14,909 bases of DNA, taken from positions 1 to 14,909 of the forward strand of contig JALGVQ010000059.1 of NCBI GenBank assembly GCA_025774615.1, given 5' to 3'. Positions 10,911 through 14,909 of the stretch are shown piece after piece. The DNA is from a bacterium (GTDB lineage Bacteria > Blakebacterota > Blakebacteria > Blakebacterales > Blakebacteraceae). The position numbers and the translations under genes are program-made. A model generated the notes under the pieces. That model had not been told where the DNA came from and made no database searches. It saw only the letters and a program-made list of their open reading frames with translations. Every line of letters starts with the position of its first letter. Position 1 is the stretch's first letter.

Positions 10911-13025
10911 ATGAACACAAACCTGGATCAGAGCTACCTTGACTACTGGGGCTTCGATCGAGCTCCGTTCGCGCTTACTCCTGATCCCGATATGCTCTAC
11001 CTCTCGAAGCAGCATCGCGAGTGCATGCTGCGCCTGCAGTACGCGATAGCCGGCAACAAGGGCGGCGCACTTCTGGTGAGTGAGAATCCCGGAGACGGGA
11101 AGACGAGTGTGCTGCGCAGGCTTGAGAAGGACCTCACTGCTGCCGCTGATGACAACTACCGGATCGTGTTCATAGATCATCCGACCCTGACCCCGAACCA
11201 GATGCTCTGGGAACTCCTCAGGCAACTGGGGTTCGGAGAATCGCAGGGGGAGAAGATCCAGAACCTGCTTCAACTGCGTGAGGCTCTGGTGGAAATGTTC
11301 GAGCGGGGTGAGCGCTGCGTATTCATCCTCGATGAAGGGCAGCTGCTCATTGACCGTCCGGAACTACTTCAGGAATTCAGGGTTCTCCTCAACTACACAG
11401 TAGGTGACACGTTCCTGCTGACATTCATCTTCTGCGGGCAGAGCGAACTCGAAGGCACGATGAAGCGGCTGCCGGAATTCTATCAGCGACTACCGGTCCG
11501 TTACTTCCTCCACAGCATGGATCTTGTTGATACCGGTCGGATGCTGGAACATCGCATCAAGGTTGCGGGGTACACCGGCCAGAAACTGTTCAGTGACGAA
11601 GCGGTGAAGGAGATCTACCGGTATGCCCGGGGAATCCCGCGCGTGATCTGTTCTGTCGCTGACCTGACTCTTGTGGTCGGACACAGCAGGAGTGTTCGTC
11701 AGATCCACGATCGGGAGGTCTTTATGGCCATCCGCGATATGGATCGATCGACACAGGATGGCTATCACTACTATCACTTCCTGCGGTCGGCAGGGGTTGG
11801 GACCCCCGAGGAGCAGAAGGAAATTGCTGCTGCTGATGCCGAACTGGATCGCAAGGAGGCGGAAGCGGCTCTCGACCGGCTTGAAGCGACCGAGAGGGGC
11901 GGTGATGTACCGATAAAATCCCTTGCAGCAGAGATAGAAGCCTGGTCTCCGGAAGAGGGCGCACACGATACTGAACTGGAAGAACACACTCTGGAACCGC
12001 AGCCGGAAGAATCCATTTCGGCTTTCAGCCTGGATGAAGAGGTCGAGCATGAGGAGTGGAAGACAACCGATGATATCGATGAAGAGCCGATAGCCGGTGA
12101 AGAAGAGTCGACCATCACCAGGGACAAAGCTGAAGTATCCCCGGATGGTTCAGGGATGGCAATACCGCTGATATCCGATTTCACGTACCGCTACTATGGC
12201 GATGAAGAGGATGAAGATGTCTCCGCACTGCCCGATATCGTGGAGAAACCTGGGTTGGGGGAGGAGCAGGAGGAGGAGGAGGAGGAGCAGCAGCAGGAAG
12301 AGGAGCAGCAGGAGCAGGAAGAGGAGCAGCAGGAAGAGGAGCAGCAGGAGCAGGAGGAGGTTGCTGACACGATCTCCGAACTGGATGAGGATTATTACCC
12401 TCCGATTCAGGACCTTTCCGGGGACGAACCATTCGTCAACTGTCCTTCGTGCGGGACCCGTCAGCAGGCTGATCGGGGAACCTGTGTACAATGCGGTGGT
12501 CCGCTTCACTGGATATGCCCGTCGTGTCAGTTCAAGAACAGTGCTCATCGCGCCAGGTGTGACCGGTGTGGGCAGAGTCTTGCACAGGCACTTCAAGAAG
12601 CCGAGCATCTTCTTCGGGAATCAGTGAGCTCATCGGTTTCCGGTCCCCAGTGGGGCTTTGTTTCAACTCCGGAATTCAGCCTGAAGCTGGGTGATGGTGA
12701 GAAGATTCTCGCAGTGGTGAAGAACAAGCCGATGCTGGGGAAGGGCGTGAATATCCGTGCCCGCACTCAGGCCTGGGGGGAGAGAGAACAGAAGGTGGAT
12801 GTGGTCATCACAAACCATCGTCTGCACATAGTCGCAAAAGAACTCCAGAGCAGGGTTCCCTATCATGAGATACAGGGTGTCAGGGCGGGGAAGGGGAAGG
12901 TGCATCTCTTCTTCAAGGATGGTAGCCTCCGAATCGGATACCCGGCCTCAGAAAGCACCATATACAGTTTGACTCGAAATCTCATCGAGTTCCTCGAGTT
13001 CCAGACGAGCCGATACCGGGTCTGA
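10911..13025 (+). CDS. ExeA/GspA-like AAA+ ATPase fused to a double zinc ribbon and a possible PH-like domain
   Basis: A 704-residue protein with several parts. The opening YWGFDRAPFALTPDPDMLYLS is typical of ExeA/GspA-type ATPases. Walker A is NPGDGKT (K64), Walker B is CVFILDE (D141, E142), sensor-1 is FIFCGQSEL (about 173-181) and the GIPRVI sensor-2 region is 242-247. After an acidic linker (about 295-450) comes a Glu/Gln tract (451-483). Then two matched zinc ribbons: C511-x2-C514-x10-C525-x2-C528 and C536-x2-C539-x10-C550-x2-C553. The C-terminal 120 residues (EFSLKLGDGEKILAVV, VVITNHRLHIVAKE, HLFFKDGSLRI) are predicted beta-rich and resemble a PH/GRAM-like domain; this last call is by eye. 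ExeA acts in type II secretion assembly, but related ATPases have varied roles, so the function here is unknown. No transmembrane segment is seen. Confidence 0.8.
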   Translation: MNTNLDQSYLDYWGFDRAPFALTPDPDMLYLSKQHRECMLRLQYAIAGNKGGALLVSENPGDGKTSVLRRLEKDLTAAADDNYRIVFIDHPTLTPNQMLWELLRQLGFGESQGEKIQNLLQLREALVEMFERGERCVFILDEGQLLIDRPELLQEFRVLLNYTVGDTFLLTFIFCGQSELEGTMKRLPEFYQRLPVRYFLHSMDLVDTGRMLEHRIKVAGYTGQKLFSDEAVKEIYRYARGIPRVICSVADLTLVVGHSRSVRQIHDREVFMAIRDMDRSTQDGYHYYHFLRSAGVGTPEEQKEIAAADAELDRKEAEAALDRLEATERGGDVPIKSLAAEIEAWSPEEGAHDTELEEHTLEPQPEESISAFSLDEEVEHEEWKTTDDIDEEPIAGEEESTITRDKAEVSPDGSGMAIPLISDFTYRYYGDEEDEDVSALPDIVEKPGLGEEQEEEEEEQQQEEEQQEQEEEQQEEEQQEQEEVADTISELDEDYYPPIQDLSGDEPFVNCPSCGTRQQADRGTCVQCGGPLHWICPSCQFKNSAHRARCDRCGQSLAQALQEAEHLLRESVSSSVSGPQWGFVSTPEFSLKLGDGEKILAVVKNKPMLGKGVNIRARTQAWGEREQKVDVVITNHRLHIVAKELQSRVPYHEIQGVRAGKGKVHLFFKDGSLRIGYPASESTIYSLTRNLIEFLEFQTSRYRV
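12261..12360 (+). repeat. Purine-rich GAG/CAG trinucleotide tract encoding a Glu/Gln stretch
   Basis: About 33 codons made almost only of GAG, GAA and CAG. Within it a 21-nt unit (GAAGAGGAGCAGCAGGAGCAG) occurs at 12297-12317 and again at 12333-12353, with a 15-nt partial copy between them. The frame stays open. Such a tract is prone to length change by slippage and probably forms a flexible or helical spacer between the ATPase and the zinc ribbons. Confidence 0.8.
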
Positions 13026-13030
13026 TTCCG

Positions 13031-14089
13031 ATGAATGACCGGCCGGGCAGGGGAGCGCGGTTCACACTGATCATCCTCCTGCTTCTTCTGCTGGTTCCGT
13101 CACATGTTCTGCGTGCAGGCGACCCTCCGGAAGGACCGCCCTGGCACATGGATTACTGGACGGCAAGGAGTGAAGCACTCCGCAACGGTACCCCTGTCTT
13201 TATCTACTTTACCAAAACCTACTGACCACACTGTGTCCCGCTGGAGCGGGACGTCCTGAGTAACCCGGCGCTCGAGCCGTGGTATGAGAGTGTCACCTGG
13301 CTCTTCGTGAACCGGAACTTCGGCTGGGACCATCGGGATGAGACCGTTCAGGACGGGAGTCTGGCCGGCGCGCCCGACTCGCTTCTGACGGACATGGAGG
13401 CTCTGCGTATCCATGACCGGTTCGGTATCTCATCCTGGCCTCAGATGATCGTGATGGATCCCCGTGATGACCGGGTTATCGGCATGCCGGAGCGCACAGT
13501 GGAGAGCGTGACCGGACTCTTCGATACCGCGATCAGGGAGATCCCCGATCCCGGCAGCAATGCTCGGCGCCTGTACCGCAGACTCGATAAGGCCATCAAG
13601 CTGTACGAGAAGGGGAAGAGAGAGAAGGGGGGGGAGCAGCTGATCGGATTGAGCAGGGAGATAGATCCCTGGCTGGTCTGGCTCGAGGCCCACCGGGCCA
13701 TGAAGGAATACACGGGCTCCGTTCTTGGTGAATCATCCAGCACGGGGTCGCAACCCGGAATACCCGATGTAGATGATCCCGACCCTGCCTGGCGCGCGCT
13801 CTCGCTGGAAAGATATCTCCTCGTTCTTGAGGATATCGCGCAGTTCAGCCAACTGGATGTGGAGTTCGGTTATGATGACAAACTGCTTCGCGCCGCGCTC
13901 TCTGATGAGGATATCGTCGTCCGCCTGCGGGCGCTCAGATGCCTCGCGTTGACGGAGCCGTCCATGATCATGGAATACGCGGCCGAACTGCTGCAGGTCC
14001 CCAACGATCCTATCCGCTATGAAGTACTCAGTGTCATCGAGCGTCCTGCGGATCAACACGGTGCGCTGTCTCAGGGAATCGGGAGATGA
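13031..14089 (+). CDS. Exported thioredoxin-fold selenoprotein (U-P-H-C active site) with a HEAT-like C-terminal part
   Basis: Read with TGA 13223-13225 as selenocysteine, this frame gives 352 residues. Residues 1-29 look like a signal peptide: Arg-rich start, Leu/Ile-rich core 13-22, possible cleavage after A29. A thioredoxin fold follows (about 35-165): strand TPVFIYFTKTY, then U65-P-H-C68 with the usual VPLERDV helix, and a cis-proline candidate P137 in SSWPQMIVMD. Exported relatives have CxxC here, so Sec exactly replaces the attacking cysteine while the resolving cysteine stays. A helical region follows (about 170 on) with HEAT-like helices (VVRLRALRCLALTEP). The frame ends at TGA 14087-14089, but the helical repeat seems to continue in another frame (see next CDS). 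The start lies five bases after the ATPase stop. If TGA were read as stop, only a 64-residue stub would remain. Substrate unknown; a periplasmic redox role is inferred. Confidence 0.8.
13223..13225 (+). other. In-frame TGA, probable selenocysteine codon (Sec65)
   Basis: This TGA occupies the first cysteine position of a thioredoxin CxxC motif: the preceding strand is IYFTKTY and the codons after it give P-H-C. The frame is open both before it (from 13031) and after it (to 14087). Most other genes in the window end in TGA, so a global recoding of TGA is not the explanation. Confidence 0.82.
13226..13254 (+). promoter_or_regulatory. Candidate bacterial SECIS element
   Basis: Nine bases after the TGA, GTCCCGC (13235-13241) pairs perfectly with GCGGGAC (13246-13252), enclosing the tetraloop TGGA (13242-13245). 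Two G-U pairs can extend the base (13234/13253 and 13233/13254). Known bacterial SECIS elements are a short stem just after the UGA with a G among the first two apical-loop bases, about 16-37 nt from the UGA. Here the first loop G (13243) is 18 nt after the last base of TGA. SelB binding is inferred, not shown. Confidence 0.72.
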
Positions 14090-14444
14090 GAGCTGTGTGG
14101 AGGTACTGGTCTCTGAGGTCTCGGAGCCGAATCCGCGTAATTACCTGCATGGGCTTATCGTCGAGACGGTGGCGGAGATAGCCCTCAGAGGTGACGACAG
14201 TCTGCAGGAGAGGACAGTTGGTGATCTCCTCCAGTCATTCCCGGCTGCAGTGGATGTATCGGGGGGCGATGAGGATACCAGGGCGCAGGAGCTCAGGATA
14301 TCGCTCTCGTTCACCCGGAAGGTGCACAAGGCGTTGGTCCACCTCAGCGGGAGAGAAGACCTCCCGGAACCGCCTGAAGAATGGTCACTTCGATCCAGAA
14401 GCGGGTATCTGGCTGAACTTCACCGTCTGCTCGGCAACGGATAG
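14019..14444 (+). pseudogene. HEAT-like continuation of the selenoprotein in a shifted frame
   Basis: This frame is open from 13968 (after TGA 13965-13967) to TAG 14442-14444; the first ATG is at 14019. It overlaps the end of the previous CDS by 71 bases. The helices VLRINTVRCLRES, SCVEVLVSEVSEP and YLHGLIVETVAEIA continue the HEAT-like rhythm of the upstream frame (DPIRYEVLSV), while the last upstream residues (after about 14040) look unlike it. Moving forward one base near 14030-14045 joins the two into a single protein of about 470 residues. The cause could be a sequencing or assembly error, a real frameshift mutation, or less likely programmed shifting. A separate small gene starting at 14019 is the alternative, but no Shine-Dalgarno site is evident. 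The end overlaps the opposing gene by 25 bp. Confidence 0.6.
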
Positions 14445-14909
14445 AACAGTGTCAGCCGAAATCTGAAACCGGGTCGGAAGAACAGGTGGCCGGGATCGTC
14501 ATCCAGGTCCCACCTGGTGAGGATTTCGAGGCGGGTGAATTCCAGCGCGATGGCGGGACCACTCCCGGGTGTCGATCTGATCCGGAATCCGATGTCCGAT
14601 GTCACCAGCCAGCCGGTATGGCCGGTGGTATCGAGCGGTGAAGCAGGCTGGGGCGCACCGATAGTACCGGAATAGACCAACCGCTCACGCTGGTTCGTGA
14701 CACCGAGGAAGAATCCTGTCTCGACGGTGGCGGTAGGAGTTCTCATGACCTGGATGAGTCCTCCCAGCGAGAACGTGAACGAGGAGACCTTCAGGACTGG
14801 CCCTGGCATGATTCCGGATGTCTGTCCTCCGGATGCAGATCGGCGCCAGGGACAGTAATCAGCGATGAAAACGAACTGACCGGCCTCCGAGCCGGGGAAT
14901 ACGACCTGT
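14420..14909 (-). CDS. Probable outer-membrane beta-barrel protein, C-terminal part (partial)
   Basis: On the minus strand a frame is open from the window edge (14909) to TGA at 14422-14420, giving at least 162 residues. An internal ATG at 14809 is not a convincing start, because coding-like sequence (FVFIADYCPW) continues upstream of it. The protein shows alternating hydrophobic/polar strands typical of a barrel: VSSFTFSLGGLIQV, ATVETGFFLGVTN, GWLVTSDIGFRIR, PAIALEFTRLEI, and the last strand HLFFRPGFRFRLTLFY. Most barrel proteins end in an aromatic residue; here a short PLPSRR tail follows, which is unusual but tolerated. No family can be named. It is the only minus-strand gene and marks the end of the plus-strand unit. 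Confidence is moderate for the gene and lower for the barrel call. Confidence 0.6.
   Translation of the reverse strand, partial: QVVFPGSEAGQFVFIADYCPWRRSASGGQTSGIMPGPVLKVSSFTFSLGGLIQVMRTPTATVETGFFLGVTNQRERLVYSGTIGAPQPASPLDTTGHTGWLVTSDIGFRIRSTPGSGPAIALEFTRLEILTRWDLDDDPGHLFFRPGFRFRLTLFYPLPSRR

Follow-up and report, generated by a model that had tools for sequence, protein, structure and literature searches.

In thioredoxin-fold proteins with a UxxC active site, the selenolate of selenocysteine (Sec, U) makes the attack and the second cysteine resolves. Published selenoproteome tables list UxxC proteins of the family PF13098 and one PF13899 (Thioredoxin_7) protein, which has a PDZ domain and a CxxU motif (PMC9312934, PMC13188914). 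The locus considered here, found in a DNA stretch of 14,909 nucleotides analysed as a whole ('the window'), very probably encodes an exported thioredoxin-fold selenoenzyme in which UGA codon 65 is decoded as Sec with the aid of a hairpin. The sole NCBIfam model touched by the window protein (E 0.0097, residues 38-79) is NF041199 (Trx7/PDZ, PF13899), likewise a Thioredoxin_7 selenoprotein (PMC9312934, PMC13188914); the score, however, is 14.9 bits against a cut-off of 300, and NF041199 places Sec second (CxxU) and carries a PDZ domain, whereas the window protein is read with Sec first (UxxC) and a HEAT-like tail, and has no PDZ domain among its Pfam hits. The PF13098 thiol:disulfide interchange protein shares the thioredoxin fold and the UxxC motif (PMC13188914, PMC9312934), but no HEAT-like tail is described for it in the tables, and the window protein falls below the cut-off of that family (Thioredoxin_2, a weak match of 24.2 bits against 27) while exceeding that of PF13899. 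In the case of TsoB (NF045694, rhodanese/DsbD fusion-like), the C-terminal thioredoxin is the best NCBIfam match for several of the sister and TPR-tailed proteins described below; its architecture differs, their best score is 65.5 bits against a cut-off of 805, and the window protein does not match it. The nearest relatives found for the thioredoxin part are short exported Planctomycetota proteins (L050-L052) and a similar protein of genome G275, which are 28-40% identical to it over the aligned stretch, but are tail-less, measure about 175-185 residues and carry CxxC instead of Sec.

In NCBIfam 20.0 the window protein reaches the cut-off of no model, nor do the sister proteins or those with TPR-type tails pass any selenoprotein cut-off. 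A preliminary description of this DNA had suggested that the architecture (signal peptide, thioredoxin fold, HEAT-like tail) may be undescribed, and for the architecture this holds: neither NCBIfam 20.0 nor the two published selenoproteome tables contain a PF13899 UxxC protein with such a tail (open literature only), HEAT and TPR being unmentioned in PMC13188914 and HEAT repeats in PMC9312934. It does not hold for the kind of protein, since UxxC and PF13899 selenoproteins are already listed (PMC13188914, PMC9312934). The features of the gene are as follows.

13031..14089, + strand: coding frame; 64 codons, TGA (Sec), 287 codons, stop reached via an 83-bp deletion
13031..13117, + strand: probable signal peptide MNDRPGRGARFTLIILLLLLLVPSHVLRA; judged by eye from a charged n-region, a hydrophobic core and terminal small residues
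13142..13348, + strand: Thioredoxin_7 (PF13899), N-terminal part, across the TGA; Pfam profile match
13223..13225, + strand: TGA read as selenocysteine U65, first residue of the UPHC site; homologue column
13232..13234, + strand: resolving cysteine C68 (TGT); homologue alignment
13235..13252, + strand: candidate bacterial SECIS GTCCCGC-TGGA-GCGGGAC; fit to the bSECIS model
13439..13441, + strand: cis-Pro137 of the thioredoxin fold; column invariant in the homologue alignment
13883..14035, + strand: HEAT-like helical repeat stretch; HEAT_2 below threshold
14043..14044, + strand: junction of the 83-bp deletion relative to contig C205 (its positions 115-197); 1-base microhomology, frameshift
14044..14444, + strand: rest of the gene, out of frame in the window and in frame on C205; C205 comparison

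The frame begins at ATG 13031, meets the in-frame TGA at codon 65 (13223-13225) and is then open to the stop at 14087-14089. Translated with U at the TGA, 13031-14089 reads MNDRPGRGARFTLIILLLLLLVPSHVLRAG... YFTKTY-U-PHC-VPLERD ... RFGISSWPQMIVMDP .... The Pfam profile Thioredoxin_7 covers residues 38-104 and so spans the TGA, with 32.5 bits against a gathering score of 27; together with the signal-type N-terminus (by eye), this predicts, as the preliminary description did, an exported thioredoxin-fold protein of the UxxC type. The catalytic C/U-x-x-C and cis-proline of the family are present as U65, C68 and P137. When residue 65 was entered as X, each of the 19 hits among homologues from other genomes (16 or 17 different proteins, as some loci are the same gene) aligned Cys at columns 65 and 68, and sister genes carry TGA at the former. 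The proposals that the TGA stands at the column of the first active-site cysteine, and that the fold continues in frame beyond it with C68 and P137, are therefore both upheld, the two latter residues lying in columns invariant among the homologues. A search with a two-sequence alignment returned four Cys-type relatives. In the PDB, a sequence search gave two marginal thioredoxin hits and nothing else. The AlphaFold2 model built without an alignment had low confidence (pLDDT 50 for the full protein and 37 for the thioredoxin part), and a PDB search with the full-length model found no match at E <= 0.001; no claim is therefore placed on the structural models.

The genome to which the window belongs (G000) is a MAG of 3.3 Mb in 324 contigs, 82% complete, and it holds the complete set of selA, selB, selC and selD genes whose presence the earlier reading had made a point to check. 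Each exceeds its curated cut-off: selA on contig C132 (509 bits against 268), selB on C262 (346 bits, neighbours in frame included, against 242), selD on C273 (351 bits against 125) and tRNA-Sec on C184 (66 bits against 47). The selD gene itself has a TGA at its catalytic position (TCAG-U-ASKLGP), and so have selD genes of the relatives G001 and G003. TGA serves as an ordinary stop as well, terminating seven of the 11 window genes, and reassignment of TGA to Trp was rejected on this ground. Two selD genes are present in G003, L069 on contig C304 and L072 on C168; one is a Sec (TGA) form, and the other is stop-free within an unusually long open frame of 741 codons.

The strongest and decisive evidence for the Sec reading is the recurrence of TGA at one column. 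A Thioredoxin_7 search of G000 and three relatives yielded five genes with a single in-frame TGA each, distributed over G000, G001 and G003, and in 5/5 the TGA occupies the position of the first active-site cysteine. Besides the window gene (KTY-U-PHC), they comprise two pairs. The genes on contig C155 of G000 (L065, L108) and on C194 of G003 (L060), from relatives in different genera, both read FHG-U-HWC, and their products have a lipoprotein-type N-terminus, Thioredoxin_7 and a repeat tail resembling a beta-propeller. The genes on C64 of G000 (L063, L109) and on C345 of G001 (L064), within one genus, encode tandem thioredoxins, with CGWC in the first Thioredoxin_7 domain and APW-U-GYC in the second. 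One exported chain of this pair would thus combine a Cys active site with a Sec active site. A profile built from three of these TGA-bearing genes and run over 386 genomes, added three further genes of other lineages with TGA at the identical column: SPT-U-KWC in G060 (L105), RPG-U-KWC in G011 (L106) and APW-U-HTC in G355 (L107). All three products appear to be exported; the tails of the G060 and G011 proteins match TPR-type families, and that of the G355 protein is long and helical with weaker TPR-type matches. Most of the matches listed are free of a stop, and Cys occupies the TGA column in those that were read out. Altogether, TGA falls on the same column in all eight TGA-bearing Thioredoxin_7 genes examined, which represent five families and six genomes. 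For a TGA placed at random over 83 domain positions, the chance that four further families agree with the first is about 2e-8 (a rough figure), and the agreement far exceeds chance. All six of these genomes have selA above cut-off, compared with three of nine comparison genomes picked by hand (p = 0.017). What computation thus establishes is the fold, where the key residues lie, the Sec machinery and the recurrence of the TGA.

The gene does not end as the window suggests. Another contig of G000, C205 (L002/L045), opens with 114 bases identical to 13930-14043, continues with 83 bases absent from the window, and then follows 14044-14909 at about 95% identity. The frame on C205 reaches a TAG equivalent to 14442-14444, and it is because of the 83-bp deletion that the window frame arrives at its stop at 14087-14089. 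The end at 14089 given in the preliminary description is hence wrong for the intact gene, which counts 498 codons from the window start codon with the 3' part of C205, and not 352. The tails of the two alleles differ synonymously at 15 codons and non-synonymously at 11, and all of the first ten differences are synonymous, a pattern that shows the intact tail to be under purifying selection. The window copy would stem from a deletion that arose recently in one strain, or else from a wrong join; an identical overlap of 114 bases followed by divergence resembles the trace that an assembly graph might leave where it splits into two branches. The deletion seems to be of recent date or limited to a single strain, and it is independent of the TGA. 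The claim of a HEAT-like tail is partly sustained: HEAT_2 gives 19.6 bits for the window protein, below its gathering cut-off of 27.7, and 17.8 for the C205 tail, and no HEAT family (PF13646/PF02985) reaches its gathering score, so that the label 'HEAT-like' is fair, but not certain.

These data also bear on the possibility of a decaying pseudogene, in which the TGA and the 83-bp deletion would be two disabling mutations. Two apparent lesions within one gene would fit such decay, as would the lack of the gene at the matching place in G003. On the other hand, sister genes and genes of other lineages have their TGA at this one column, and their genomes carry Sec machinery; the frame stays open for 272 codons from the TGA to the deletion, with a coding-type base composition; and the tail alleles differ mostly at synonymous sites, with an undeleted version on C205. 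Decay is accordingly very unlikely. An error of sequencing or assembly, with TGT or TGC as the true codon of an ordinary C-P-H-C thioredoxin, might be suspected in a fragmented MAG with a mixture of strains, where contigs C44 and C205 are identical over 114 bases and then diverge; but the same codon would have to be affected each time, across several genes and several independent assemblies, all of genomes with selA. As the same TGA is found in five gene families and six genomes, sequencing error offers no explanation, and we consider it extremely improbable. That the TGA terminates a short peptide and a restart near GTG 13307 yields a separate protein can practically be discounted: the mechanical open reading frames do fall at 13031-13225 and 13307-14089, which bears out the predicted split by gene callers, but such a division would cut the Thioredoxin_7 domain and lose both active-site residues, and inspection of the sequence ahead of 13307 revealed no ribosome-binding-like element.

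For the exported selenoenzyme, we infer Sec insertion, enzyme activity, SECIS function, export, electron donor, substrate and the role of the tail, in the following scheme. SelB and Sec-tRNA-Sec would decode the UGA at codon 65, aided by the hairpin just downstream. The mature protein would then carry its U-P-H-C site outside the cytoplasm, in a Thioredoxin_7 domain that precedes the alpha-helical HEAT-like tail. The Sec65 selenolate would likely attack a disulfide, or another oxidised substrate, and C68 would resolve the intermediate as a Se-S bond. The enzyme could be re-reduced from the cytoplasm, plausibly via a DsbD-type transporter encoded in the genome; a DsbD-like protein with a C-terminal Trx_7 domain on contig C191 of G000 is a plausible source of electrons. 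The HEAT-like tail probably docks partners or substrates, and it is an obvious candidate for selecting them.

The candidate SECIS at 13235-13252 has a stem of 7 bp (9 with two G-U pairs), a UGGA loop that starts 16 nt past the TGA, and a folding energy of -13.9 kcal/mol. The bSECIS model asks for a loop of 3-9 nt, a G in the first two loop bases, a spacing of 16-37 nt (PMC13188914) and an MFE <= -7.5 (PMC13188914). The hairpin agrees with every one of these constraints, but so do 22% of the codons in window genes, and taken alone it is therefore weak evidence; this loose criterion was dropped. An equally long stem at equal spacing follows only 0.25% of window codons. The selD gene of G000 has a hairpin with its loop at 17 nt, and a similar hairpin is found in selD of G001 and G003. 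In the two sister pairs, codons +1 to +14 past the TGA are identical in 11/12 and 13/13 comparable cases, against a codon identity of 58% and 66% elsewhere (p = 0.016 and 0.006), and results are similar with windows of 10-25 codons. This conservation is compatible with an overlapping RNA element. The C155/C194 pair, though, also shares a series of identical codons immediately ahead of the TGA, and synonymous conservation is thus not specific to a downstream element. Rfam gave no match over the whole window.

It is rather probable, with a fair margin of doubt, that the window gene belongs to an unlisted set of exported Sec-first Thioredoxin_7 proteins that occur in several lineages and form an envelope redox module, with scaffold tails as varied as HEAT-like, propeller-like, TPR and a second thioredoxin. 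Standard gene callers break genes of this sort at the TGA, and the active site is lost; since related genes of the same and other lineages share the TGA at this spot, gene finders would miss a small group of these enzymes. If the proposed set is real, an envelope redox module of the selenoproteome has been hidden by this splitting. From a single window, the analysis arrived at eight TGA-bearing, apparently exported Thioredoxin_7 genes in six genomes, which suggests that extracytoplasmic thiol chemistry uses selenium more widely than the published family tables indicate. The gene also offers a clean case, with matched Cys homologues, for measuring the benefit of Sec outside the cytoplasm.

No orthologue of the window gene was found in the 386 genomes, nor any close relative of its protein in a scan of a collection of 85,000 species. 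At locus L023 of G003 (C23:1-190), the counterpart of the AAA gene that precedes the Sec gene in the window is followed directly by DNA that resembles, by eye, the C205 region upstream of asnS; the Sec gene and its downstream minus-strand neighbour are both absent between these regions. The absence of the gene at the matching locus of G003 indicates that it is dispensable. The contig of G001 breaks at the point matching the locus. In the window, the AAA gene (10911-13025) ends 5 bases upstream of the start of the Sec gene, and the two probably share a transcript; its product is an AAA ATPase that contains a long acidic linker rich in Glu and Gln and has a zinc-ribbon region at its C-terminus.
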